Positions 1-8,985 of a stretch of 8,985 nt of DNA are shown piece after piece. The stretch is taken from positions 1 through 8,985 of the forward strand of contig JAJXUC010000155.1 in assembly GCA_021783435.1 (NCBI GenBank). Direction: 5' to 3'. How positions within the stretch are numbered: position 1 is the first letter of the stretch; each line of letters begins with the position of its first letter. The translations under genes were made by a program, and so were the position numbers. The DNA comes from Pseudomonadota bacterium. Lineage in GTDB: Bacteria; Pseudomonadota; Gammaproteobacteria; Burkholderiales; Burkholderiaceae. Below the pieces are notes generated by a model that was not told where the DNA came from, did not search any database, and saw only the letters and a list, made by a program, of their open reading frames with translations.

Positions 1-266
1 ACGCGGGCGCCGGCGTAGGCCACCAGCTCCACGGTGCGTTGCTGGCCCGGCTCGAAACGCACGGCGGTGCCGGAGGCGATGTTCAGCCGCATGCCGCGCG
101 CGGCCGCGCGGTCGAAACGCAGCGCGGGGTTGGTTTCGGCGAAGTGGTAATGGGAGCCGACCTGAATCGGGCGGTCGCCCGCGTTCTCCACCACCAGGGT
201 GAGGGTGGGGCGGCCAGGGTTGAGGACGAGTTCGTCCTCGGCGCAAACGAGTTCTCCGGGAATCAT
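1..266 (-). CDS. ureB: Urease beta subunit UreB (3' end outside window)
   Basis: Structural subunit of cytoplasmic urease, which hydrolyses urea to ammonia and carbamate. UreB packs with UreA and the nickel-bearing UreC. Reading the minus strand from the ATG at 266-264 gives 88 residues beginning [19 protein letters not shown]. They include the family-typical stretches [22 protein letters not shown] and [12 protein letters not shown]. UreB is usually about 100-105 residues, so roughly the last 15 are missing at the window edge. The start lies 13 bases after the ureA stop, with GGAG in that gap as a plausible ribosome binding site, so it is co-transcribed with ureA. ureC would be expected next, beyond position 1. 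The family assignment is secure; only the end is unseen. Confidence 0.95.
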
Positions 267-279
267 GCGCGGCTCCGTT

Positions 280-582
280 TCAGACAATGGGCTGGTGCAC
301 GGTCACCAGTTTGGTGCCGTCGGGGAATGTGGCTTCCACCTGGATGTCGGGAATGAGTTCGGCCACGCCGTCCATCACCGCGTCGCGGCTCAGCAGCGTG
401 CGGCCATAACTCATGAGATCGGCCACGGTGCGGCCGTCGCGCGCGCCTTCCATCACCGCGGCGGTGATGTAGGCGATGGCCTCGGGCACGTTGAGCTTGA
501 GCCCGCGCGCCTTGCGGCGTTCCGCCAGCAGGCCCGCGGTGAAGATCAGCAGCTTGTCTTTTTCGCGAGGGGTGAGGTCCAT
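280..582 (-). CDS. ureA: Urease gamma subunit UreA
   Basis: Smallest structural subunit of cytoplasmic urease, forming the UreABC trimer. The 100-residue product has the standard length and hallmarks: [14 protein letters not shown] at the start, [20 protein letters not shown], then [11 protein letters not shown], and a C-terminal segment [20 protein letters not shown]. It is the first gene of the minus-strand urease cluster and is followed after 13 bases by ureB. No good Shine-Dalgarno is visible before the ATG. In many betaproteobacteria the accessory gene ureD directly precedes ureA. Here the upstream side is instead a non-coding divergent region shared with urtA, so ureD must lie elsewhere, if present. 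The ammonia it produces from imported urea ties it functionally to the divergent urt operon. Confidence 0.97.
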
Positions 583-711
583 GGGCTTGCGGTTCTAGGT
601 GGGTGCGTTGGGTCAGCGTGTGGGGTCAGCTTAGCGCTGTGCACAGGCGTTGTGGCGGACCTGCGCCGGTGAATCCGCTGCTCAAGGCAGCGCAGCAAGA
701 GCAGCGCAAAA

Positions 712-740
712 ACCATACCCATGCGTTGACGGTGTTTCAC
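712..740 (-). promoter_or_regulatory. Weak sigma-70-like promoter candidate for ureAB
   Basis: On the minus strand, GTGAAA (740-735) and TATGGT (717-712) are separated by exactly 17 bases and each matches 4 of 6 consensus positions. It would give a leader of about 120 bases before ureA. A match this loose is expected by chance fairly often, so it is only a candidate. Confidence 0.2.
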
Positions 741-782
741 GGCCGGCATGTGCCGGATGCGCCGACGCAGACACCAAAGCAG

Positions 783-819
783 TGCACGCGGCAGGCACGC
801 GGGCTGGTGCATGCGCACC
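783..819 (+). promoter_or_regulatory. Possible NtrC-type activator site cluster
   Basis: The half-sites GTGCAC (783-788), GGCAC (794-798), GGTGC (806-810) and GCACC (815-819) cluster here, about 120-155 bases upstream of the predicted urtA start. That is a normal distance for an NtrC enhancer. NtrC recognises GCACC-N5-GGTGC-like dyads. The best pair here has spacing off by about one base, so the assignment is tentative and rests mainly on the neighbouring sigma-54 promoter. Confidence 0.25.
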
Positions 820-913
820 GAATTGCAGCCAGGCCGCGGCGGCGCGCTGGCCTGTGCGGCGCGGGGTCGCGCACAAGCCGCGAGACTCGCGCAGGACAAG
901 CGTCATCCCGACG

Positions 914-929
914 TGGCACGGGACTTGCT
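914..929 (+). promoter_or_regulatory. Sigma-54 (RpoN) promoter for the urt operon
   Basis: TGGCACGGGACTTGCT matches the -24/-12 consensus TGGCACG-N4-TTGCW at every defined position, with the invariant GG (915-916) and GC (927-928) at the correct spacing. Transcription would start near 940, giving a leader of about 33 bases before the urtA ATG at 973. Sigma-54 promoters need an enhancer-binding activator, and for urea uptake the natural candidate is NtrC under nitrogen limitation. The match is seen directly; the activator is inferred. Confidence 0.85.
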
Positions 930-972
930 GACGTGGTGCTTGCATTTCGCATCCACCGGAGGGAGTCTCAAC

Positions 973-2214
973 ATGGATCGTCGTACCGCTTTGAAAACCG
1001 TCGGCACCACCGTCGCCGCCGCAGCAGCCAGCAGTTTGTCCTTCCCCGCCATCGCGTCGAAGAAGGCGCCGATCAAGGTCGGCATCCTGCATTCGCTCTC
1101 GGGCACCATGGCCATCTCCGAGACCGCGCTCAAGGACGTGGACCTGATGACCATCGCCGAAATCAACGCCAAGGGGGGTGTGGACGGCCACATGATCGAA
1201 CCCGTGGTGGTGGACCCGGCGTCCAACTGGCCGCTGTTCGCCGAGAAGGCGCGCCAACTCATCTCGCAGGACAAGGTGGCCGCCATCTTCGGCTGCTGGA
1301 CGTCGGTGTCGCGCAAGTCGGTGCTGCCGGTGCTCGACGAACTCAACGGCCTGCTGTTCTACCCGGTGCAGTTCGAAGGCCAGGAGGAGAACCCGCACGT
1401 CGTGTACACGGGTGCCGCGCCCAACCAGCAGGCCATTCCCGCCACCGAATACCTGATGAGCAAGGACGGCGGGGGTGCCAAGCGCTTCTTCCTGCTGGGC
1501 ACCGATTATGTGTACCCGCGCACCACCAACGCCATCCTGCGCGGCTTCCTGCATTCCAAGGGTGTGAAGGATGCCGACATCGCCGAGGTCTACACGCCCT
1601 TCGGTTTCAGCAACTACCAGAACATCGTCGCCGACATCAAGAAGTTCGCCTCCGCCGGGCCCACCTGCGTGATCTCCACCGTGAACGGCGACTCCAACGT
1701 GCCGTTCTATAAGGAACTCGGTAACCAGGGCATCAAGGCCACCGACATTCCGGTGGTGGGCTTTTCCATCGCCGAGCAGGAAATCGCCGGCATGGACCTG
1801 AAGCCCCTGGTGGGCCAGCTCACGGCGTGGAACTACTTCGAGTCACTGAAAAACCCGACCAACGCCAAGTTCGTCAAGTCCTGGCAGAGCTGGGTCAAGA
1901 CCAAGGGCCTGAAGGACTACCCCGTCACCGACGACCCGATGGAGGCCTCCTACATCGGCCTCCACATGTGGAAGCAGGCGGTGGAGAAGGCCAAGTCCAC
2001 CAAGACCGACGCCGTGCGCAAGGCGCTCATCGGCCAGAAGTTCGCCGCGCCGGACGGCTACACCGTCGAGGTGCTGAAGAACCAGTACCTGAGCAAGCCG
2101 GTGTTCATCGGCCAGATTCGCGAAGACGGCCAGTTCGACGTGGTGTGGAAGTCCAAGGGCCTGGTCCCGGGGGAGTCCTGGAGCCCGTACATCCCCAAGC
2201 CGAAGAACGCCTGA
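973..2214 (+). CDS. urtA: Urea ABC transporter, substrate-binding protein UrtA
   Basis: Periplasmic receptor that captures urea (or short-chain amides) and delivers it to the UrtBC channel. The product is 413 residues. The ATG at 973 is preceded by GGAGGGAG (958-965) at good spacing. The N-terminus MDRRTALKTVG carries a twin-arginine (Tat-like) motif, then an Ala-rich hydrophobic stretch and a likely cleavage site around AIA-S (residues 26-29). The mature part starts IKVGILHSLSGTMAISE, typical of the Leu/Ile/Val-binding-like family. Other characteristic stretches are NWPLFAEKARQLI, IFGCWTSVSRKSVLPV, NGLLFYPVQFEGQEE and VNGDSNVPFYKELGNQGI, which together mark UrtA rather than a generic LivK. 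It is the first gene of urtABCDE, with its own sigma-54 promoter. A palindrome follows the stop codon and may set binding-protein levels above those of the permeases. Confidence 0.96.
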   Translation: MDRRTALKTVGTTVAAAAASSLSFPAIASKKAPIKVGILHSLSGTMAISETALKDVDLMTIAEINAKGGVDGHMIEPVVVDPASNWPLFAEKARQLISQDKVAAIFGCWTSVSRKSVLPVLDELNGLLFYPVQFEGQEENPHVVYTGAAPNQQAIPATEYLMSKDGGGAKRFFLLGTDYVYPRTTNAILRGFLHSKGVKDADIAEVYTPFGFSNYQNIVADIKKFASAGPTCVISTVNGDSNVPFYKELGNQGIKATDIPVVGFSIAEQEIAGMDLKPLVGQLTAWNYFESLKNPTNAKFVKSWQSWVKTKGLKDYPVTDDPMEASYIGLHMWKQAVEKAKSTKTDAVRKALIGQKFAAPDGYTVEVLKNQYLSKPVFIGQIREDGQFDVVWKSKGLVPGESWSPYIPKPKNA

Positions 2215-2232
2215 GCATCGGCAAAGGAAAAA

Positions 2233-2282
2233 CTCCCCCCTCCCGACCTCCCCCACGCCGTGGGGAGGGTTGGGGTGGGGAG
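2233..2282. repeat. GC-rich imperfect palindrome between urtA and urtB
   Basis: CTCCCC-rich and GGGGAG-rich arms of about 21 bases pair at roughly 16 of 21 positions around CACGCCGTG, giving a large hairpin just after the urtA stop. It resembles the dispersed C-run/G-run intergenic palindromes of betaproteobacterial genomes. There is no T-run, so it may act as an mRNA stabiliser or attenuator rather than a full terminator. Confidence 0.6.
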
Positions 2283-2294
2283 CCAGCACACCAA

Positions 2295-2322
2295 CCGGTG
2301 TTGAGTCACCGGTGTTGAGTCA
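2295..2322. repeat. Tandem 14-base direct repeat upstream of urtB
   Basis: CCGGTGTTGAGTCA occurs twice back to back, ending 12 bases before the urtB ATG. It occupies the place where a ribosome binding site would be expected. I see no clear Shine-Dalgarno there. Confidence 0.85.
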
Positions 2323-2334
2323 CGTATCCGCGCC

Positions 2335-3993
2335 ATGATCTTCCAGCATTTCCTTCGGCACCGACCTTGCGCATGGCTGCGCGCCGCCTTTGGACCGCTG
2401 CTGCTCGGCCTGCTGCTGCTCGGCCTGCTGCTGCTCGGCCTGCTGCCGCTGGCGCATGCGCTCACGCCGCAGGAGGCCATGGCGATTTCCAGCGGCGATA
2501 CCGACGCCCGCATCGCCGCGCTGCACCAGGCCGTGGAGCACCCCGATGCGCAGCTTGCAGACTTTCTGCACAAGCTGCTGAACAACGCGGTGCAGGTCGA
2601 CGGCAGCATGGTGCAGGTGCAGCAGGGCCATGACTGGATCGACCTCGCCACCGGTCAGAAAGTCACGCCCAGCGCCAACGCGCAAGCGGTGATCAACAAC
2701 AACTATGTGCGCAAGGAACTGCAATCGGCCCGCGCCGCGCTGGACTTGTTTTCCGGCGACCGCGCCTTGCGCCTGAAGGCCGTGCAGCAACTGCAGGACG
2801 ACCCGACATCGGTGGATCGCGGCCTGGTGGAGCAGGCCCTCAAGACCGAGAAAGATCCCGACATCCTGGAGCGGCTGCAACTGCTGCATGCCGCCATTCT
2901 CCTGACGAGCAAGAACGCCGCCGAACGCCTGAGCGCGGCGCAGGATCTTGCCGCCAGCAACTACCCGGCGGTGCGCAGCCTGCTGCTGTCGCGGCTGGAC
3001 AAGAAGGATGGCCAGCTCGTCGAGCCCGATGCCGCCGTGCGCGAGCAAATCCGGTCCAGCCTCGCCGCCATCGACGAGCGTCTGGCCTGGGGCGAGCGCC
3101 TGGGCACGCTGTTCTCCGGCATCAGCCTGGGCAGCATCCTGCTGCTGGCCGCGCTCGGCCTGGCCGTGACCTATGGGCTGATGGGCGTGATCAACATGGC
3201 GCAGGGCGAGTTCATCATGATCGGGGCCTACTCCACCTATGTGATGCAGGGCTGGTTCCAGCGCGACTGGCCAGGCCTGCAGAGCTATGCGCTGGCGGCG
3301 GCGGTGCCGTTCTCCTTCATCGTCGCCGGCGGCATCGGCATGCTGGTGGAACGCGCCATCATCCGCAAACTGTATGGCCGGCCGCTGGAAACGCTGCTGG
3401 CCACCTGGGGCATCAGCCTGGTGCTGATCCAGATCGTGCGCACCATGTTCGGGCCGCAGAACGTGCAGGTGGACAACCCGCCGTGGATGTCGGGTGGCCT
3501 GCACGTCATGGCCAATCTCATCCTGCCCTACAACCGCATGGTCATCATCGCCTTCACCGCTTTCGTGCTGCTGGCCATGTGGCTGCTCATCGCGCGCACC
3601 CGCCTGGGCCTGTTCGTGCGCGCCGTGACGCAGAACCGGCCGATGGCCTCGTGCATGGGCGTGCGCACGCCACGTGTCGACATGCTGGCCTTCGGCCTGG
3701 GTGCCGGCATTGCGGGATTGGCGGGCTGCGCGCTCAGCCAGATCGGCAACGTCAGCCCCGAGATGGGGCAGGGCTACATCGTCGACTGTTTCATGGTGGT
3801 GGTGCTCGGCGGCGTCGGCCAGCTCACCGGCACAGTCACGGCAGCCCTCACGCTGGGCGTGGCCAACACCCTGCTCGAAGGCGTTGCGGGCGCGGTGCTG
3901 GCGAAAATTGCCGTGCTGGTGGCCATCATCCTCTTCATCCAGAAACGCCCCCAGGGCATGTTCGCCCTCAAAGGCCGCAGCGTGGAGAGCTGA
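2335..3993 (+). CDS. urtB: Urea ABC transporter, permease UrtB
   Basis: Inner-membrane permease of the LivH type, forming the urea channel with UrtC. The product is 552 residues, the long form typical of proteobacterial UrtB. A signal peptide (about residues 1-42, ending LAHA) is followed by an all-helical non-membrane domain (about 43-250). The permease proper starts around 255 with LFSGISLGSILLLAALGLAVTYGLMGVINMAQGEF. Further family marks are GRPLETLLATWGISL, FVRAVTQNRPMASCMGVRT, DCFMVVVLGGVGQLTGTV and the C-terminal FIQKRPQGMFALKGRSVES. The N-terminal domain is often poorly annotated but belongs to this family. The hydrophobic core of the signal contains three exact LLLGL units from a 15-base DNA repeat. 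The urtC start follows the stop by 3 bases, so translation is probably coupled. No strong ribosome binding site precedes the ATG. Confidence 0.95.
   Translation: MIFQHFLRHRPCAWLRAAFGPLLLGLLLLGLLLLGLLPLAHALTPQEAMAISSGDTDARIAALHQAVEHPDAQLADFLHKLLNNAVQVDGSMVQVQQGHDWIDLATGQKVTPSANAQAVINNNYVRKELQSARAALDLFSGDRALRLKAVQQLQDDPTSVDRGLVEQALKTEKDPDILERLQLLHAAILLTSKNAAERLSAAQDLAASNYPAVRSLLLSRLDKKDGQLVEPDAAVREQIRSSLAAIDERLAWGERLGTLFSGISLGSILLLAALGLAVTYGLMGVINMAQGEFIMIGAYSTYVMQGWFQRDWPGLQSYALAAAVPFSFIVAGGIGMLVERAIIRKLYGRPLETLLATWGISLVLIQIVRTMFGPQNVQVDNPPWMSGGLHVMANLILPYNRMVIIAFTAFVLLAMWLLIARTRLGLFVRAVTQNRPMASCMGVRTPRVDMLAFGLGAGIAGLAGCALSQIGNVSPEMGQGYIVDCFMVVVLGGVGQLTGTVTAALTLGVANTLLEGVAGAVLAKIAVLVAIILFIQKRPQGMFALKGRSVES
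2398..2442 (+). repeat. Three exact copies of a 15-base repeat inside urtB
   Basis: CTGCTGCTCGGCCTG is repeated at 2398, 2413 and 2428 with no mismatches, encoding residues 22-36 of UrtB as LLLGL three times. It lengthens the hydrophobic core of the signal peptide in frame. Each copy gained or lost by slippage would change the protein by exactly five residues. Confidence 0.95.
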
Positions 3994-3996
3994 GCG

Positions 3997-5148
3997 ATGT
4001 CCGCCATCACCAACGATTCAGGCGCCGCCGCCCCCCCGCCCCTCCAGCCCTCGCCGCCGCGGGTGCAGTTGCAGCCGGCCACGAACTTCCTGCCGGCCTG
4101 GGGTTGGACCGCGCTCACCGTCTTCTTGCTGCTGGCTTGCGTGGTCGCGCCGCTGTTGGCGCTGGCCGTGCCGCAAGGCAGCAGCCTGCACCTGTCGCAA
4201 TACTGGGTGGGCCTGGCCGGCAAGATTCTTTGCTACGCCATCGTCGCGCTGGCGATGGATCTGGTGTGGGGCTACGCCGGCATCCTGTCGCTGGGGCAAG
4301 GGTTGTTCTTCGCCCTCGGCGGCTATGCCATGGGCATGTACCTCAACCAGGCCATGACGGCTGCCAGCGGCAATCTGCCCGACTTCATGCAGTTCATGCA
4401 GTGGACCCGCTTCCCCTGGTACTGGGCGGGCACCGAGCACTTTGCCTATGCGCTGTTCCTGGCGTTGTTCATGCCCGGCCTGCTGGCCTTCATCTTCGGT
4501 TTCTTCGCCTTCCGCTCGCGCATCAGAGGGGTGTATTTCTCCATCATCACCCAGGCGCTCACCTATGCCGCCATGCTGCTGTTCTTCCGCAATGAAACCG
4601 GCTTCGGCGGCAACAACGGCCTCACCGACTTCAAGGTGCTGCTGGGGTTTCCCATGGGCACCGCGGGCATGACCATGGCGCTGTTCGTCGCCACCTGCGT
4701 GGCACTGGCCGGCTGCTTCGTCTTCGCCCGCTGGCTGGTGCGCAGCAAGTTCGGTCGCGTGCTCACCGCCATCCGCGATGCCGAGAGCCGCGTCATGTTC
4801 TGCGGCTACAACCCGCTGTGGTTCAAGCTCGGCGTGTGGACCATCGCCGCGATGATGTGCGGCCTGGCCGGCGCCCTGTACGCGCCGCAGGTCGGCATCA
4901 TCAACCCGAGCGAAATGTCCACCGCCAACTCCATCGAAATCGCGATCTGGACGGCCATCGGCGGGCGCGGCACGCTCATCGGCCCCATCATCGGCGCGGT
5001 GCTGGTGAATGCCGCCAAGAGCTGGCTGACCGTGGCCATTCCCGAAGCCTGGCTCTATCTGCTCGGCGGGCTGTTCATCGTCGTCACGTTGTACGCGCCC
5101 TACGGTGTCGTCGGCCTGGTCAGGCAATGGAGGCAGCGCCGTGGCTGA
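3997..5148 (+). CDS. urtC: Urea ABC transporter, permease UrtC
   Basis: Second inner-membrane permease (LivM type), partner of UrtB. The product is 383 residues. It begins with a Pro/Ala-rich cytoplasmic tail (about residues 1-35), followed by about 8-10 hydrophobic segments. Diagnostic stretches are YAIVALAMDLVWGYAGILSLGQGLFFALGGYAMGMYL, SRIRGVYFSIITQALTYAAMLLFF, ETGFGGNNGLTDF, FGRVLTAIRDAESRVMFCGYN and IWTAIGGRGTLIGPIIGA. The NETGFGGNNGLTDF motif is characteristic of UrtC. The ATG lies 3 bases after the urtB stop. The last 8 bases overlap the proposed GTG start of urtD, the tight packing expected of one operon. The assignment is secure. Confidence 0.96.
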   Translation: MSAITNDSGAAAPPPLQPSPPRVQLQPATNFLPAWGWTALTVFLLLACVVAPLLALAVPQGSSLHLSQYWVGLAGKILCYAIVALAMDLVWGYAGILSLGQGLFFALGGYAMGMYLNQAMTAASGNLPDFMQFMQWTRFPWYWAGTEHFAYALFLALFMPGLLAFIFGFFAFRSRIRGVYFSIITQALTYAAMLLFFRNETGFGGNNGLTDFKVLLGFPMGTAGMTMALFVATCVALAGCFVFARWLVRSKFGRVLTAIRDAESRVMFCGYNPLWFKLGVWTIAAMMCGLAGALYAPQVGIINPSEMSTANSIEIAIWTAIGGRGTLIGPIIGAVLVNAAKSWLTVAIPEAWLYLLGGLFIVVTLYAPYGVVGLVRQWRQRRG

Positions 5149-5992
5149 ACTCGATTGGCGCGACATCGTCTTCCAGCAACCGAATCCCGAACTGGGCGGC
5201 AGCGTTCAGGAGGGCGGCTACGGCCACTTGCGCCAGCCGGGGGTGGATATGAGCCATGGCGTGGCGCTGTACCTCGACGACATCAGCGTCAGCTTCGACG
5301 GTTTCCGCGCGCTAAACAAGCTGTCGCTGGCGATCGATACTGGCGAGCTGCGCTGCATCATCGGCCCCAATGGCGCCGGCAAGACGACGATGATGGACGT
5401 CATCACCGGCAAGACCCGGGCCGACTCCGGCACGGCGTTCTTCGGCCAGACCATCGACCTGCTCAAGCTGCGCGAGGCCGAGGTGGTGGAGGCCGGTATC
5501 GGCCGCAAATTCCAGAAGCCCACCGTGTTCGAGGACATGAGCGTGCAGGACAACCTGGAGCTTGCACTCAAAGCCGACAAGCGCGCCCGCAGCACCTGGC
5601 GTTTTCGCCTGAGCAGCGCGCAGCGTGAGCGGGTGGAGGAGGTGCTCACGCAAATCGGTCTGCACGACCAGGCCGCGCGCCGTGCCGGCGACTTGTCGCA
5701 TGGCCAGAAGCAGTGGCTGGAAATCGGCATGCTGCTCATGCTCGAGCCGCAGTTGTTGCTGCTGGACGAACCCGTGGCCGGCATGACCGATGCCGAGACC
5801 GACCGCACCGCCGAGTTGTTCCTGTCTCTCGCCGGTAAGCACACGCTGATGGTGGTGGAGCACGACATGGAGTTCGTGCGCAAGATCGCCCACAAGGTCA
5901 CGGTGCTGCACGAGGGCAGCGTGCTGGCCGAAGGCAGCCTGGAGCAGGTGCAGGCCGACGCGCGCGTGGTCGAGGTTTACCTGGGGCGGTGA
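5141..5992 (+). CDS. urtD: Urea ABC transporter, ATP-binding protein UrtD
   Basis: Cytoplasmic ATPase of the LivG type that drives UrtBC together with UrtE. I chose the GTG at 5141 because GGAGG (5129-5133) sits 7 bases upstream; it overlaps urtC by 8 bases and gives 283 residues. Visible motifs are Walker A GPNGAGKT (75-82), a Q-loop region RKFQKPTVFEDMSV (122-135), signature LSHGQKQWLEIG (185-196), Walker B LLLLDEPVAGM (205-215) and switch histidine VVEHDM (H241). The LSHGQKQ form and the RKFQKP segment are typical of UrtD. An alternative ATG at 5249 would remove the first 36 residues, which are low in conservation and precede the ABC fold. It lacks as good a ribosome binding site, but homologues often start there. 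Confidence 0.94.
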   Translation: MAELDWRDIVFQQPNPELGGSVQEGGYGHLRQPGVDMSHGVALYLDDISVSFDGFRALNKLSLAIDTGELRCIIGPNGAGKTTMMDVITGKTRADSGTAFFGQTIDLLKLREAEVVEAGIGRKFQKPTVFEDMSVQDNLELALKADKRARSTWRFRLSSAQRERVEEVLTQIGLHDQAARRAGDLSHGQKQWLEIGMLLMLEPQLLLLDEPVAGMTDAETDRTAELFLSLAGKHTLMVVEHDMEFVRKIAHKVTVLHEGSVLAEGSLEQVQADARVVEVYLGR

Positions 5993-6013
5993 GTGGAACA
6001 GCCCCCACGCTCA

Positions 6014-6070
6014 CGGTGTTCGCTGCCCCCCGAGGGGGCGCAGGCCTCCCTTGGGGCGGCCCGGCGGGAG
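6014..6070. repeat. GC-rich palindromic intergenic repeat between urtD and urtE
   Basis: GCCCCC-CGA-GGGGGC (6025-6039) forms a 6-base-pair hairpin with a three-base loop, followed by a second C-rich/G-rich half around CCTCCCTTGGGGCGG and CCCGGCGGG. This composite matches my recollection of a widely dispersed intergenic element in Comamonadaceae and relatives. It separates urtD from urtE by about 100 bases, whereas the other permease and ATPase genes are packed tightly. Confidence 0.6.
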
Positions 6071-6095
6071 TCCTGACCTCGGTACCTCAATCACC

Positions 6096-6788
6096 ATGCT
6101 CAACATCGACGCGGTCAACCAGTATTACGGCGGCAGCCACATCCTGCGCAACGTCAGCCTCAGCCTCGAAAAAGGCCAGGTGCTCACCTTGCTGGGGCGC
6201 AACGGCGTGGGCAAGACCACGCTGCTCAAGTCCCTCATGGGCCTGGTGGGCATCAAGAGCGGCAGCATCAGCTTCGACGGCGCGCGCATCGACCAGTTGC
6301 GTCCCGACGCCCGCGCCCGCCTGGGTCTGGGCTATGTGCCGCAGGGCCGCGAAATCTTCCCCCGCCTCACCGTGGAAGAAAACCTGCGCATGGGCCTGGC
6401 CTACCGCCCCGGCTCCGCCACCGTGCCCGACGAACTGTTCGCGCTGTTCCCGGTGCTCAAGCAGATGCTGCACCGCCGTGGTGGCGACCTCTCCGGCGGT
6501 CAGCAACAGCAACTCGCCATCGCCCGGACGCTGGCCGCAGGCCCCAAGCTGCTCATCCTGGATGAGCCCACCGAAGGCATCCAGCCCTCGATCATCAAAG
6601 ACATCGAGCGCGTCATCCGCATGCTCGCCGCACGCGGCGACATGGCCATCCTGCTCGTCGAGCAGTACTACGACTTCGCCAAGTCGCTCGCCGACACCTA
6701 TTGCGTGATGTCGCGCGGCGAAGTGGTGAAGGCGGGCAAGGGCGCAGACATGGATGCGGATGGGGTGCGGGAGCTGATTGCGGTGTGA
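6096..6788 (+). CDS. urtE: Urea ABC transporter, ATP-binding protein UrtE
   Basis: Second ATPase of the urea importer (LivF type), 230 residues, which is the normal length. Motifs are [13 protein letters not shown] near the start, Walker [10 protein letters not shown] (34-42), Q-loop region [18 protein letters not shown], signature [16 protein letters not shown] and Walker [23 protein letters not shown] stands where other ABC proteins have a switch histidine; Gln at that point is normal for LivF/UrtE. The [10 protein letters not shown] and VEQYYDFA forms identify UrtE. It is last in urtABCDE, starting 103 bases after urtD across a palindromic repeat. Its C-terminus (GVRELIAV) appears intact even though integron DNA begins just behind it, so the insertion spared the transporter. 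Confidence 0.96.
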
Positions 6789-6838
6789 ACGGACAGGTGC
6801 CCGTCATTGCCGGCAAGTTGTGCCGCGCATGACACCTT

Positions 6839-7496
6839 GAGCAAGCGATCCAGCGGGCTGGCCGTGCCGCCGGCAGCCACCTTCAGCACATGGGTGTAGA
6901 TCATGGTGGTGCTCACGTCCGAGTGCCCCAGAAGCTCCTGCACGATGCGGATGTCCGTGCCGGATTGCAGCAGATGGGTGGCGAAGGAATGGCGCAGCGT
7001 ATGCACCGAGACCGGCTTGACGATGTGCGCTGCCGCGCTGGCCAGCTTGATGGCGCGCTGCAGGCGGTCCTCATACAGGTGATGCCGACGCTCGATGCCC
7101 GAGCGCGGATCGACCGACAGCCTGGGCGCCGGAAACACCCAGAACCAGCCCCAGCGGCACCCCAGGTTCTGATTTTTCACCGCCAGCGCATCCGCCACCT
7201 CCACGCCCGGCAAACCGTCGGCCTGGTCGCCGTTCCATCCATATGTGGGTGGACGTCGAAACTCGGCGCTCATTCGCCAGCATGGACAGAAACTGCTGCA
7301 CCTCGGCAGCGCCCATGTCCCGTGGGTGCCGTATCGACCCGCCACGGCTGCTCCACCGCACGAAAAACCGCACCCAATACCGATACGCCTCCTCGGTGCG
7401 CAGGCTATAGTGCCCGCACTGCATCACCTCGCTCACCTAATCCAGCAGCTAATCCAGCAGGCGCTGCGACTGGGAAGAATGGGCGACCGAGTTCAT
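6839..7496 (-). pseudogene. intI: Integron integrase IntI, inactivated
   Basis: Tyrosine recombinase that would excise and insert gene cassettes at attI and attC. It reads from an ATG at 7496 (MNSVAHSSQSQRLLD), then meets in-frame TAG stops at 7451-7449 and 7439-7437. It continues [17 protein letters not shown] and [28 protein letters not shown], the usual IntI N-terminal domain. Near 7245 similarity jumps frame to [12 protein letters not shown], then [19 protein letters not shown] and [17 protein letters not shown], the extra segment found only in integron integrases. [30 protein letters not shown] (catalytic Tyr at 6898-6896) and SPLDRLL follow. Some 110 residues between the halves are missing, including the box I arginine region. 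The C-terminal frame has no stop at its natural end and runs on into antisense urtE. It cannot make an active enzyme. Assignment to integron integrases is firm; the class is unknown. Confidence 0.93.
7437..7460. repeat. 12-base tandem duplication with stop codons in intI
   Basis: CTAATCCAGCAG (plus strand) is present twice in direct succession. On the intI strand each copy reads Leu-Leu-Asp-stop. The ancestral sequence was probably LLDQ, a CAG-to-TAG change followed by (or following) the duplication. Confidence 0.9.
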
Positions 7497-7654
7497 GACG
7501 ATTTGGATAACAGTTTTTATGAGCAACACATGGCCGGCAAGCCAGTTGTCAAGTGGGTTGCGGGCGACCGCTCCTCTCGCCGCACGGGTAGGGCGCGGAG
7601 ATTATTTTGTCGGATAACATCGGACTCTGGAGTTATCCGACGATCTACATTACG
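7497..7654 (+). other. attI-like recombination and control region
   Basis: This is the segment between the intI start and the first cassette, where an integron keeps attI and usually the cassette promoter. It ends at the core G^TTAGAC (7654-7660), the expected crossover point. It contains an inverted pair GTCGGATAAC (7609-7618) and GTTATCCGAC (7632-7641), and GGATAACA also occurs at 7505-7512. Integrase-binding direct repeats with a GTTAT/GTTAC core occur in the attI of class 1 integrons, so these may be the accessory sites. On the minus strand a perfect TTGACA (7552-7547) faces intI but lacks a good -10. I find no convincing cassette promoter. Confidence 0.55.
7609..7641. repeat. Perfect 10-base inverted repeat in the attI-like region
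   Basis: The arms GTCGGATAAC and GTTATCCGAC are separated by 13 bases and end 13 bases before the cassette crossover point. It could be a pair of integrase-binding sites, an operator, or an RNA hairpin in the cassette leader. Confidence 0.85.
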
Positions 7655-8830
7655 TTAGACATCACACTCAGGCCCCCCATGTCCTCCAAGTACCAAGTCT
7701 TTGTCAGCTCTACGTTTCGTGACCTCGAAGACGAGCGAAATCTCGTGATCAAGGCCATCCTAGAAATGGGACATATTCCGGTCGGCATGGAGATGTTTAG
7801 CGCCGCCGATGAGGAGCAGTGGAACCTAATCAAGAAACAAATAGACCAATCAGACTATTACGTTGTAGTCGTTGCACACCGTTATGGCTCGTGCGACGCC
7901 ACAGGAACAAGCTACACCGAAAAGGAATATGACTACGCGGTTTCGAAGCTGGTTCCGGCCTTGGGTTTCGTAGTCGAAGAGGCCGTTTCATGGCCGAAAG
8001 ATAAGTCAGAGACAGATAAAGTGGCTCTCAAGAAGCTCAAAGGCTTCAAAGAGAAGATAAAGTCAAAGCCGGTCAGCTTTTGGAAGAACGGCGAAGACTT
8101 ATACGGCCGCTGCTCGATCGCTCTGATGAAGGCTTTTAACGCCTATCCTCGAGAAGGTTGGGTTCGCGCGTCCCAGATTCAAGACGCTGCAACTTCGAAA
8201 GAAATTGTTCGACTTAGCGCTGAGAATGCAGACCTCAGAACACGACTTCTGTCGTTCGAGACAGTCGCGGATGAAGCGATAGCGATTCAGAAGGTAATTG
8301 AGACTATGCGCGCCAATAAGCGCAAGATTTCGGTCTGGAAGAAGACGAGCAAGGACTGGGAGCCCTCGAAAGAGGTTACCCTCTACCAAATATTCGAAAC
8401 GTTGGCTATGGAGATGCAGGTCGAACTTTCCTTAACCGAAATCGCTCAGTACACGGCGACCAACATCCTGTCCATACCGTCCGCAGAAATTCGACTAGCT
8501 TGGGCTACCCCACGAAACACGATTCGCTCGATTCTCGCTGACTTGGCAGCATTGAATTGCGTCGAGCCGTCAACTCGAAGGAAACCTGTTGCAGACAAGG
8601 GCGAATATTGGTCACTGTCTAACTATGGGTCAAAGGTTCTCGCCCAAATGAGAAGACGGCGCCTTGATCGAATCGAGAGTTTGGCGAAGCTCGAACAGCC
8701 GCCCGCAAAAGACCCAAAGAGTGATGTCTAACCCATCGCTCAACCTGACACTTTGCGGCGGTCCAATTTTGGTTTCCATTTCATTCCAACCCAAAATTTT
8801 CCCGCCGCAAAGTGCAGGTTAGCTCAAGCG
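7655..8830 (+). mobile_element. Integron gene cassette (DUF4062 gene plus attC)
   Basis: A 1176-base unit delimited by the core G^TTAGAC at its left (crossover 7654/7655) and by GCG^TT at its right (8828-8832). The left-end GTTAGAC is the exact complement of GTCTAAC that opens the attC, as required if the circular cassette is to re-form a paired site. It contains one gene in the usual orientation with a short 24-base leader, ending inside the attC. Base composition (about 50% GC in sampled lines) differs from the flanking host genes (about 70%), supporting transfer from another genome. Confidence 0.88.
7679..8731 (+). CDS. DUF4062 domain protein with probable C-terminal winged helix (cassette gene)
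   Basis: Function unknown; 350 residues, predicted cytoplasmic with no signal or membrane segment. Residues 5-95 form a DUF4062 domain: YQVFVSSTFRDLEDER (5-20), GHIPVGMEMF (31-40), QSDYYVVVVAHRYGS (57-71) and SYTEKEYDYAV (78-88). The domain extends to the family-typical FW (134-135) and YPREGWVRA (156-164). Residues 172-195 look like a short coiled coil (IVRLSAENADLRTRL). From about 235 a helical section leads to a winged-helix-like end: NTIRSILADLAALNCVEP, then GEYWSLSNYGSKVL. I chose the ATG at 7679; the frame is open upstream but that would cross the recombination point. No Shine-Dalgarno is evident. The stop TAA (8729-8731) is part of the attC core. DUF4062 often sits at the N-terminus of NTPase or repeat proteins; here it is joined to a possible DNA-binding end without an NTPase. 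A defence or signalling role is only conjecture. Confidence 0.88.
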   Translation: MSSKYQVFVSSTFRDLEDERNLVIKAILEMGHIPVGMEMFSAADEEQWNLIKKQIDQSDYYVVVVAHRYGSCDATGTSYTEKEYDYAVSKLVPALGFVVEEAVSWPKDKSETDKVALKKLKGFKEKIKSKPVSFWKNGEDLYGRCSIALMKAFNAYPREGWVRASQIQDAATSKEIVRLSAENADLRTRLLSFETVADEAIAIQKVIETMRANKRKISVWKKTSKDWEPSKEVTLYQIFETLAMEMQVELSLTEIAQYTATNILSIPSAEIRLAWATPRNTIRSILADLAALNCVEPSTRRKPVADKGEYWSLSNYGSKVLAQMRRRRLDRIESLAKLEQPPAKDPKSDV

Positions 8831-8836
8831 TTGGTT
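8726..8836 (+). other. attC recombination site
   Basis: About 111 bases. It opens with GTCTAAC (RYYYAAC core, 8726-8732) and closes with GCG^TTGGTT (8828-8836), where the last bases belong to downstream DNA. Inside, 8742-8761 pairs with 8802-8820 over 19 base pairs. A single unpaired A (8748) sits where attC hairpins carry an extrahelical base, after the inner AACCTG/CAGGTT arm. The loop contains a further 8-base stem, AATTTTGG (8765-8772) with CCAAAATT (8791-8798). The flanks TCGCTCAACC and GGTTAGCTCAAGCG are typical of chromosomal-integron sites. Confidence 0.9.
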
Positions 8837-8985
8837 CACCATGAGCTGCGATCCACATTGTGACCTGCCCCCTCGTGCCGTACCAACGTTAAGTCAGGAG
8901 TCCGGGTTGCAAGGTTAATTCACCTCGTTGGTCGTTGTGGGGTGAAGAGCATCGCCAGCGCGCTGGCGATGCTCTTCGGCGAATC
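8837..8985. other. Non-coding tail beyond the cassette
   Basis: I see no credible gene here. A 25-codon frame from the ATG at 8841 has no recognisable product. CAACGTTAAGT (8885-8894) fits the GTTRRRY core but lacks a partner and stem. Inverted copies of ACCAACG (8882-8888) and CGTTGGT (8925-8931) are present. It is probably the start of another element continuing past the window. Confidence 0.5.
8944..8977. repeat. Perfect 34-base palindrome
   Basis: Positions 8944-8960 are the exact reverse complement of 8961-8977, with no spacer. It is GC-rich, centred on AGCGCGCT, with ends GAAGAGC and GCTCTTC. It could be a hairpin terminator for the cassette transcript, although no T-run follows in the 8 bases left. 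It could also be a repeat element or the edge of the next mobile unit. Confidence 0.9.

Follow-up and report, generated by a model that had tools for sequence, protein, structure and literature searches.

The window analysed here, a stretch of 8,985 nucleotides from a Burkholderiaceae member of the Pseudomonadota (assembly GCA_021783435.1, contig JAJXUC010000155.1, positions 1 to 8,985), carries an integron gene cassette whose gene encodes a protein of 350 amino acids (aa) with an N-terminal DUF4062 domain. With high confidence, this gene is a Swarozyc-type single-protein abortive-infection system borne by an integron cassette. By analogy with KpSwz, the Swarozyc protein of Klebsiella pneumoniae, the window protein very probably has NADase activity and is, in all likelihood, antiphage, while the choice of the phage portal as its trigger, rather than another phage part, is favoured with only moderate confidence. 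A gene otherwise annotated only as "DUF4062 domain-containing protein" is in this way given a proposed function, in which both the catalytic residue and the sensor can be tested. The gene and its predicted parts are the following:

7679..8731, plus strand: coding sequence of the 350-aa Swarozyc-type DUF4062 protein (P0001), with ATG at 7679 and the stop codon ending at 8731
7679..8167, plus strand: DUF4062/TIR-like domain, putative NADase, residues 1-163
7925..7927, plus strand: codon of Glu83, the predicted catalytic glutamate and counterpart of KpSwz E97, by alignment to the E97A site of 10wc
8168..8314, plus strand: stalk helix, residues 164-212, a single helix in the predicted structure
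8315..8686, plus strand: winged-helix auxiliary (putative sensor) domain, residues 213-336, from the model, the fold matches and homology to the KpSwz auxiliary domain (AUX)
8318..8380, plus strand: beta hairpin, residues 214-234, with W220 and W227 between strands 214-217 and 231-234 of the model

The initial annotation had placed a DUF4062 domain at the N-terminus of a real open reading frame (ORF), which was confirmed by a match of PF13271 to residues 6-87 (107.6 bits, E-value 3.6e-31, gathering cut-off 24.7). This was the sole Pfam match above cut-off, and no NTPase was seen in the 350-aa protein, also as proposed; an NCBIfam scan of the protein returned nothing above cut-off. A Pfam match to BCNT (E 0.096) was regarded as noise, and PDC-S60, the sole PADLOC match (E 2.5e-4), covered part of the head only and was too weak for naming a system. 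A longer TTG-started frame from 7607 was rejected, since it would span the cassette boundary at 7655, and the ATG at 7679 is for this reason the preferred start. In a search of 5.8 billion proteins, 2225 were found at E ≤ 1e-3; among the 120 matches listed, the 20 ranking directly below the query (P0002-P0021) were all of 350 aa, with 71-80% identity and 100% coverage.

According to a preprint of May 2026 (PMC13174449), DUF4062 is a TIR-like NADase, and five DUF4062 proteins were challenged with phages, with strong defence seen, most notably for two of them. The same source reports that KpSwz senses the phage portal and kills the infected cell, that is, acts by abortive infection; that its defence needs E97 and the auxiliary domain; and that NAD+ drops upon infection, the Bas14 portal activating the KpSwz NADase. 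The AUX of KpSwz, of helix-turn-helix/winged type, was described as a crescent on the portal, with a hairpin carrying W238/Y239 termed the "hairpin anchor", and the activation geometry was put forward as the authors' proposal (PMC13174449). Portal binding, portal-activated NADase activity and abortive infection are on record in that preprint for KpSwz alone, and the window protein is linked to it by computation, through full-length homology, fold prediction, conservation of the catalytic glutamate and cassette anatomy.

When a profile of 65 relatives was compared with solved structures, KpSwz (10wc) was matched at E 2.9e-61, residues 3-327 aligning on 4-322. The C-terminal profile alone also placed the KpSwz AUX first (10wc 224-325, E 6.9e-12), the next match being PadR at E 0.25. 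Adding 13 to the 10wc chain index gives the preprint numbering, in which W225/Y226 become W238/Y239 and A84 the E97A site; in the window protein, the counterpart of the latter in the alignment is E83, and that of KpSwz W238 is W220. The comparison rests on sequence, because KpSwz was not among the 50 fold matches listed from a Protein Data Bank (PDB) fold library dated to 8 April 2026. Common to the window protein and KpSwz (10wc, 11cq, 11cv) are a DUF4062 TIR-like head, the catalytic glutamate, a stalk and a homologous winged-helix auxiliary domain, all within one protein of similar length. They differ in the sensor, which is much diverged in the window protein (a single-sequence phmmer match, E 1.7e-46, covered residues 3-200 only), and in location, the KpSwz gene lying in a defence island and the window gene in an integron cassette. 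It follows that the system is not undescribed, as had been supposed, given that Swarozyc is already in the literature (PMC13174449; 10wc, 11cq, 11cv). The defence reading first suggested remains the best one, the full-length homologue being an antiphage protein, and the characterised homologue has a role in defence and not in housekeeping.

The head was matched in the fold search of the model by TIR, NDT and DNPH1 structures, with SPARTA TIR-APAZ proteins also among them. These matches raise the alternative that the head is a nucleotide N-glycosidase of NDT, DNPH1 or MilB-like type, acting on (deoxy)nucleotides and not on NAD+; it is considered quite improbable, and a Z difference of about 2 between related folds is no guide to substrate. 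For the preferred NADase, the candidate catalytic residue E83 and the neighbouring E81 were Glu in all 96 aligned rows. Compared with its cassette-borne relative in locus L001, the TIR part showed 85% aa identity and 73% DNA identity (dN, the nonsynonymous divergence, 0.11; dS, the synonymous one, beyond estimation), and this part of the 350-codon frame is thus under clear constraint.

A coiled-coil-like linker and a winged-helix C-terminus had also been anticipated. The former corresponded to the predicted single helix of residues 164-212; for the latter, structure prediction and fold search agreed, with residues 205-336 modelled at a pLDDT (predicted local distance difference test) of 94.6 and the C-terminal fold matches being winged helices, PadR/MarR-like. 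The interpretation of this domain as a DNA-binding end was not supported, though some DNA binding may occur: the homologous KpSwz AUX, itself of winged fold, attaches to the phage portal, and the winged helix is best read, by analogy, as a phage sensor. It might be argued that the same NADase effector is governed by a winged-helix end that senses phage DNA or RNA instead of a protein ring, as would suit a PadR/MarR-like fold from families that bind DNA, a domain net charge of +6 with a basic run (MRRRR) near its end at residues 324-328, and the nucleic acid sensing of the SPARTA TIR-APAZ proteins matched by the head. This is held to be unlikely, for the homologous AUX of KpSwz binds a portal protein and the model retains the hairpin that serves KpSwz as portal anchor. 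Within this hairpin, W227 is conserved as W in 68 of the 96 rows and in 37/37 of the closest ones, and W220 in 39/96 and 23/37, respectively.

If the sensor reading is adopted, the protein would form an oligomer that inhibits itself, its helical stalks keeping the TIR-like DUF4062 heads in an inactive arrangement. An assembled phage structure would be bound by the winged-helix domain at the C-terminus, with its aromatic-tipped hairpin; in KpSwz, the one relative studied in detail, this structure is the portal ring. The gathering of many copies on the ring would bring the heads into the active arrangement, leading to loss of NAD+, by hydrolysis to ADP-ribose and nicotinamide, and to cell death. 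The mean identity to the query was 76% for the head versus 54% for the sensor among 36 relatives, and 57% versus 29% among the 59 other rows, a contrast that fits a constant effector joined to a sensor whose changes are driven by its target. A catalytic domain is often the better-conserved one anyway, which weakens the argument from head and sensor. The far divergence of the sensor from that of KpSwz is why the portal is favoured as trigger only moderately. A fast-changing sensor beside a more constant head would offer a natural series for studying the adaptation of portal sensing.

Other known systems are related to the proposed one in part. SpbK of Bacillus subtilis ICEBs1, as described in PMC12847820, is likewise a single-protein system that combines NADase activity, portal sensing and abortive infection; it differs in having an N-terminal helical-bundle sensor followed by a canonical TIR domain at its C-terminal end, the window head being N-terminal and of DUF4062 type. 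The DUF4062 domain of human TEP1 (PDB 11gz) is credited in PMC13174449 with the same fold and NADase chemistry. TEP1 differs in being a large NACHT/WD40 vault protein, and only a short N-terminal stretch matched, at a non-significant E of 0.11.

The vehicle of the gene is delimited by the following features:

7655..8830, plus strand: integron gene cassette of 1176 bp, from core sites and hairpin
7654..7660, plus strand: core site GTTAGAC, marking the 5' junction of the cassette (either attI or a left-hand site)
8726..8830, minus strand: attC site, a bottom-strand hairpin, with R'' GTCTAAC at 8726-8732 overlapping the stop codon and arms at 8749-8775 and 8788-8814

Mobilisation as a cassette, already suspected in the initial annotation, was borne out by these core sites and the attC hairpin. 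GTTAGAC at 7654-7660 is the exact reverse complement of GTCTAAC at 8726-8732, and the TTAGAC half that pairs with R'' is located at the cassette's 5' end, which is normal for an integrated cassette; the core of the right-hand junction, GTTGGTT, departs from GTTRRRY at a single base. On the bottom strand, 8722-8840 folded with a free energy of -35.4 kcal/mol (z -8.88), and none of 200 shuffled sequences reached so low a value. A match of this hairpin to the Rfam family mir-16, which at 30.1 bits fell short of the gathering threshold (36.5), was dismissed as a chance hairpin match. The foreign composition that had been noted was also found, the GC content being 50.3% in the cassette versus 65.8% in positions 1-6700 of the window. 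Read by eye, the ORFs of these first 6.7 kb are a putative cluster for a urea ABC transporter. At about 1.2 kb, a one-gene system suits the cassette format.

To the left of the cassette, two pieces of an integrase gene were recognised:

6842..7234, minus strand: integron integrase remnant, C-terminal catalytic part, TIGR02249 at E 3.5e-52 (frame 6698-7345), equivalent to residues 218-348 of the relative in L001
7248..7412, minus strand: N-terminal part of the integron integrase remnant, lying in a different frame, PF13495 at E 2.4e-15

Against the intact integrase of L001, residues 46-96 and 218-348 were matched at the adjacent positions 7248 and 7234; because the matching parts abut, the window lacks the equivalent of residues 97-217, a loss of about 120 codons. 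With the gene split over two frames, no functional integron integrase was found beside the cassette, which, as judged from the DNA, sits in a decayed integron: by this reading, the integron platform is dead, and the cassette end is well kept. Among the matches listed, the integrase DNA was about 74% identical, over about one-third of the query, to class 3 intI genes and a Diaphorobacter integrase. To the right of attC, positions 8846-8985 showed 72-74% identity to the 3' end DNA of plasmid IS3/IS1477-family transposase genes (H43, H44), and a perfect palindrome of 34 bp was present at 8944-8977. An insertion sequence (IS) thus probably abuts the cassette on this side.

These surroundings bring up a minor, though real, possibility that the cassette is decayed and silent, its frame surviving unexpressed and idle in the host, which would be compatible with the Swarozyc reading of the protein. 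The loss of about 120 integrase codons over two frames and the IS-like end abutting the cassette speak for it, as does a simple consensus scan of the plus strand, which returned no promoter-like site, although many promoters escape this method. On the other hand, the 350-codon frame is intact, and the low dN of its TIR part suggests constraint.

To place the cassette among its relatives, ends of homologous genes were scanned for attC sites in 87 loci from genome and viral collections, with genome-contig relatives represented by the best 80 of 130. Six were dropped (five cut by contig ends and one with a broken gene), giving 82 gene ends including that of the window. Any attC motif pair was found at 5/82 gene ends, and three were cassette-like, with a free energy per nucleotide below -0.2: the window, L001 (a Burkholderiales metagenome-assembled genome) and L069 (Synechococcus). 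The weak motif pairs of L044 and L002 were left out of this count, and the span chosen for the window, 8738-8894, was longer than the attC described above. As background, this cut-off was passed by 6 of the 2183 ORF ends in L001-L087, of which two were the L001 and L069 genes themselves, two were other L001 ORFs and two belonged to the prophage contig L082. In a further 36 loci, L089 alone passed, being a duplicate of L001, with L090 (a copy of L002) and L096 being weak, and L003 (Pseudomonas, 66% identity) had no attC candidate. The cassette state is therefore rare among readable loci, and many close relatives sit on short contigs.

L001, whose gene is 77% identical, is a clear cassette: it is flanked by core sites, and an intact integrase lies about 5.5 kb upstream, with a row of same-strand ORFs between; it was the only one of the scanned loci L001-L111 to match the window integrase pieces at E ≤ 1e-8. 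Its integron extends over 3426-14507 and comprises, besides this integrase, some dozen ORFs on the same strand; when nine of the array ORFs were compared with Pfam, seven remained without a match and the other two were DMP19-like and PNPOx. In L069 (Synechococcus sp. Tobar12-5m-g), a distant Swarozyc-type gene at 9970-11110 is bounded by the core sites GTTAGAC/GTTAGAT, and its stop codon is followed by a hairpin of -24.6 kcal/mol. No integrase match was obtained at this locus, the same genome having integron integrases on other contigs, and these ends suggest that it is probably an integron cassette of cyanobacteria. One clade of 17 rows in the tree (support 100/98) held both the window and L001, and L069 was far away; if the ends of L069 are real, the cassette state would have arisen more than once. 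A bolder and doubtful extension is that integrons are a regular Swarozyc vehicle, that the 70-80% relatives form a cassette-borne subfamily with a sensor retuned to a phage part other than the Bas14-type portal, and that the family was captured at least twice, once in cyanobacteria. If true, integrons would shuffle ready-made one-gene suicide sensors aimed at different phage targets.

Antiphage genes carried by integron cassettes have been reported by Darracq 2025, Kieffer 2025 and Getz 2025, as cited in PMC12444791, and the window resembles these in having a defence gene as a cassette. The main text of the preprint PMC13174449 has neither "integron" nor "cassette", that of DefensePredictor (PMC13092281) does not name DUF4062, and no paper in the collection searched combined DUF4062 and integron. 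The kind of protein has been known since May 2026, and the novelty lies in the integron vehicle; that this is the first integron-borne DUF4062 gene to be described is not established.

Prophages are a second vehicle of the gene, as indicated by the phage context of L082 and by the phage protein family phrog_15411, whose match covered the full-length architecture (E 1.1e-76). Relatives are encoded by seven viral-collection contigs; in L082, a 51% relative (8001-9086) has a phage primase on one side and a small conserved phage ORF on the other, and the contig also has a CI-like phage repressor. Integron cassettes would thereby join prophages as routes of spread for a newly described NADase defence. 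This phage association, the full-length homology to a tested antiphage protein and the invariant catalytic glutamate all speak against a role as a transcription regulator or stress sensor outside defence, which has only the winged-helix fold in its favour and is very improbable. With the query genome included in each case, relatives at E ≤ 1e-40 were present in 11/398 genomes of the genus of G003 (Pseudomonas), 7/399 of the order of G001 and 5/297 of the family of G801 (a Lysobacter); at E ≤ 1e-60, 1/369 genomes of the class of G001 had one. With the Synechococcus protein as query, 9/386 genomes of its phylum were positive at E ≤ 1e-40. This distribution is patchy and was counted in favour of the defence reading.

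No known defence gene was seen beside the cassette gene in the window. Over half of the bacterial DUF4062 homologues adjoin a defence gene according to PMC13174449, a link that was not reproduced here, as 104 neighbours showed no clear excess of defence genes over 104 controls. The neighbours were hand-picked from 150 listed, out of 179 ORFs lying no more than 5 kb away in L003-L030 (28 loci), and came from 20 loci, mainly short ORFs and the last loci having been dropped; the controls were drawn at random from 143 proteins of 15 stretches in eight Pseudomonas or Burkholderiales-order genomes, mostly other genomes than those of the test loci. At E ≤ 1e-15, the neighbours matched 19 PADLOC families (many cyclase models, two effector models, PDC-S54 and mad3) and the controls eight (IetA models, SspA, MzaA, DndA and mad3), each in one member, these counts being of families and not of distinct proteins. 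Matches below 1e-60 occurred only in the neighbour set, at a cut examined post hoc, and are not taken as enrichment.

Some further relatives were noted. In Chromohalobacter sp. 11-W (L033), a 62-63% relative has internal stops and is a pseudogene. Of 182 plasmid records with DUF4062, 163 were from Staphylococcus, with about 32% identity over the head only among the matches listed; these proteins probably have another architecture with the same head. Two records of Acinetobacter phage MD-2021a (about 220 kb) contained a match of 25% identity to residues 1-243.
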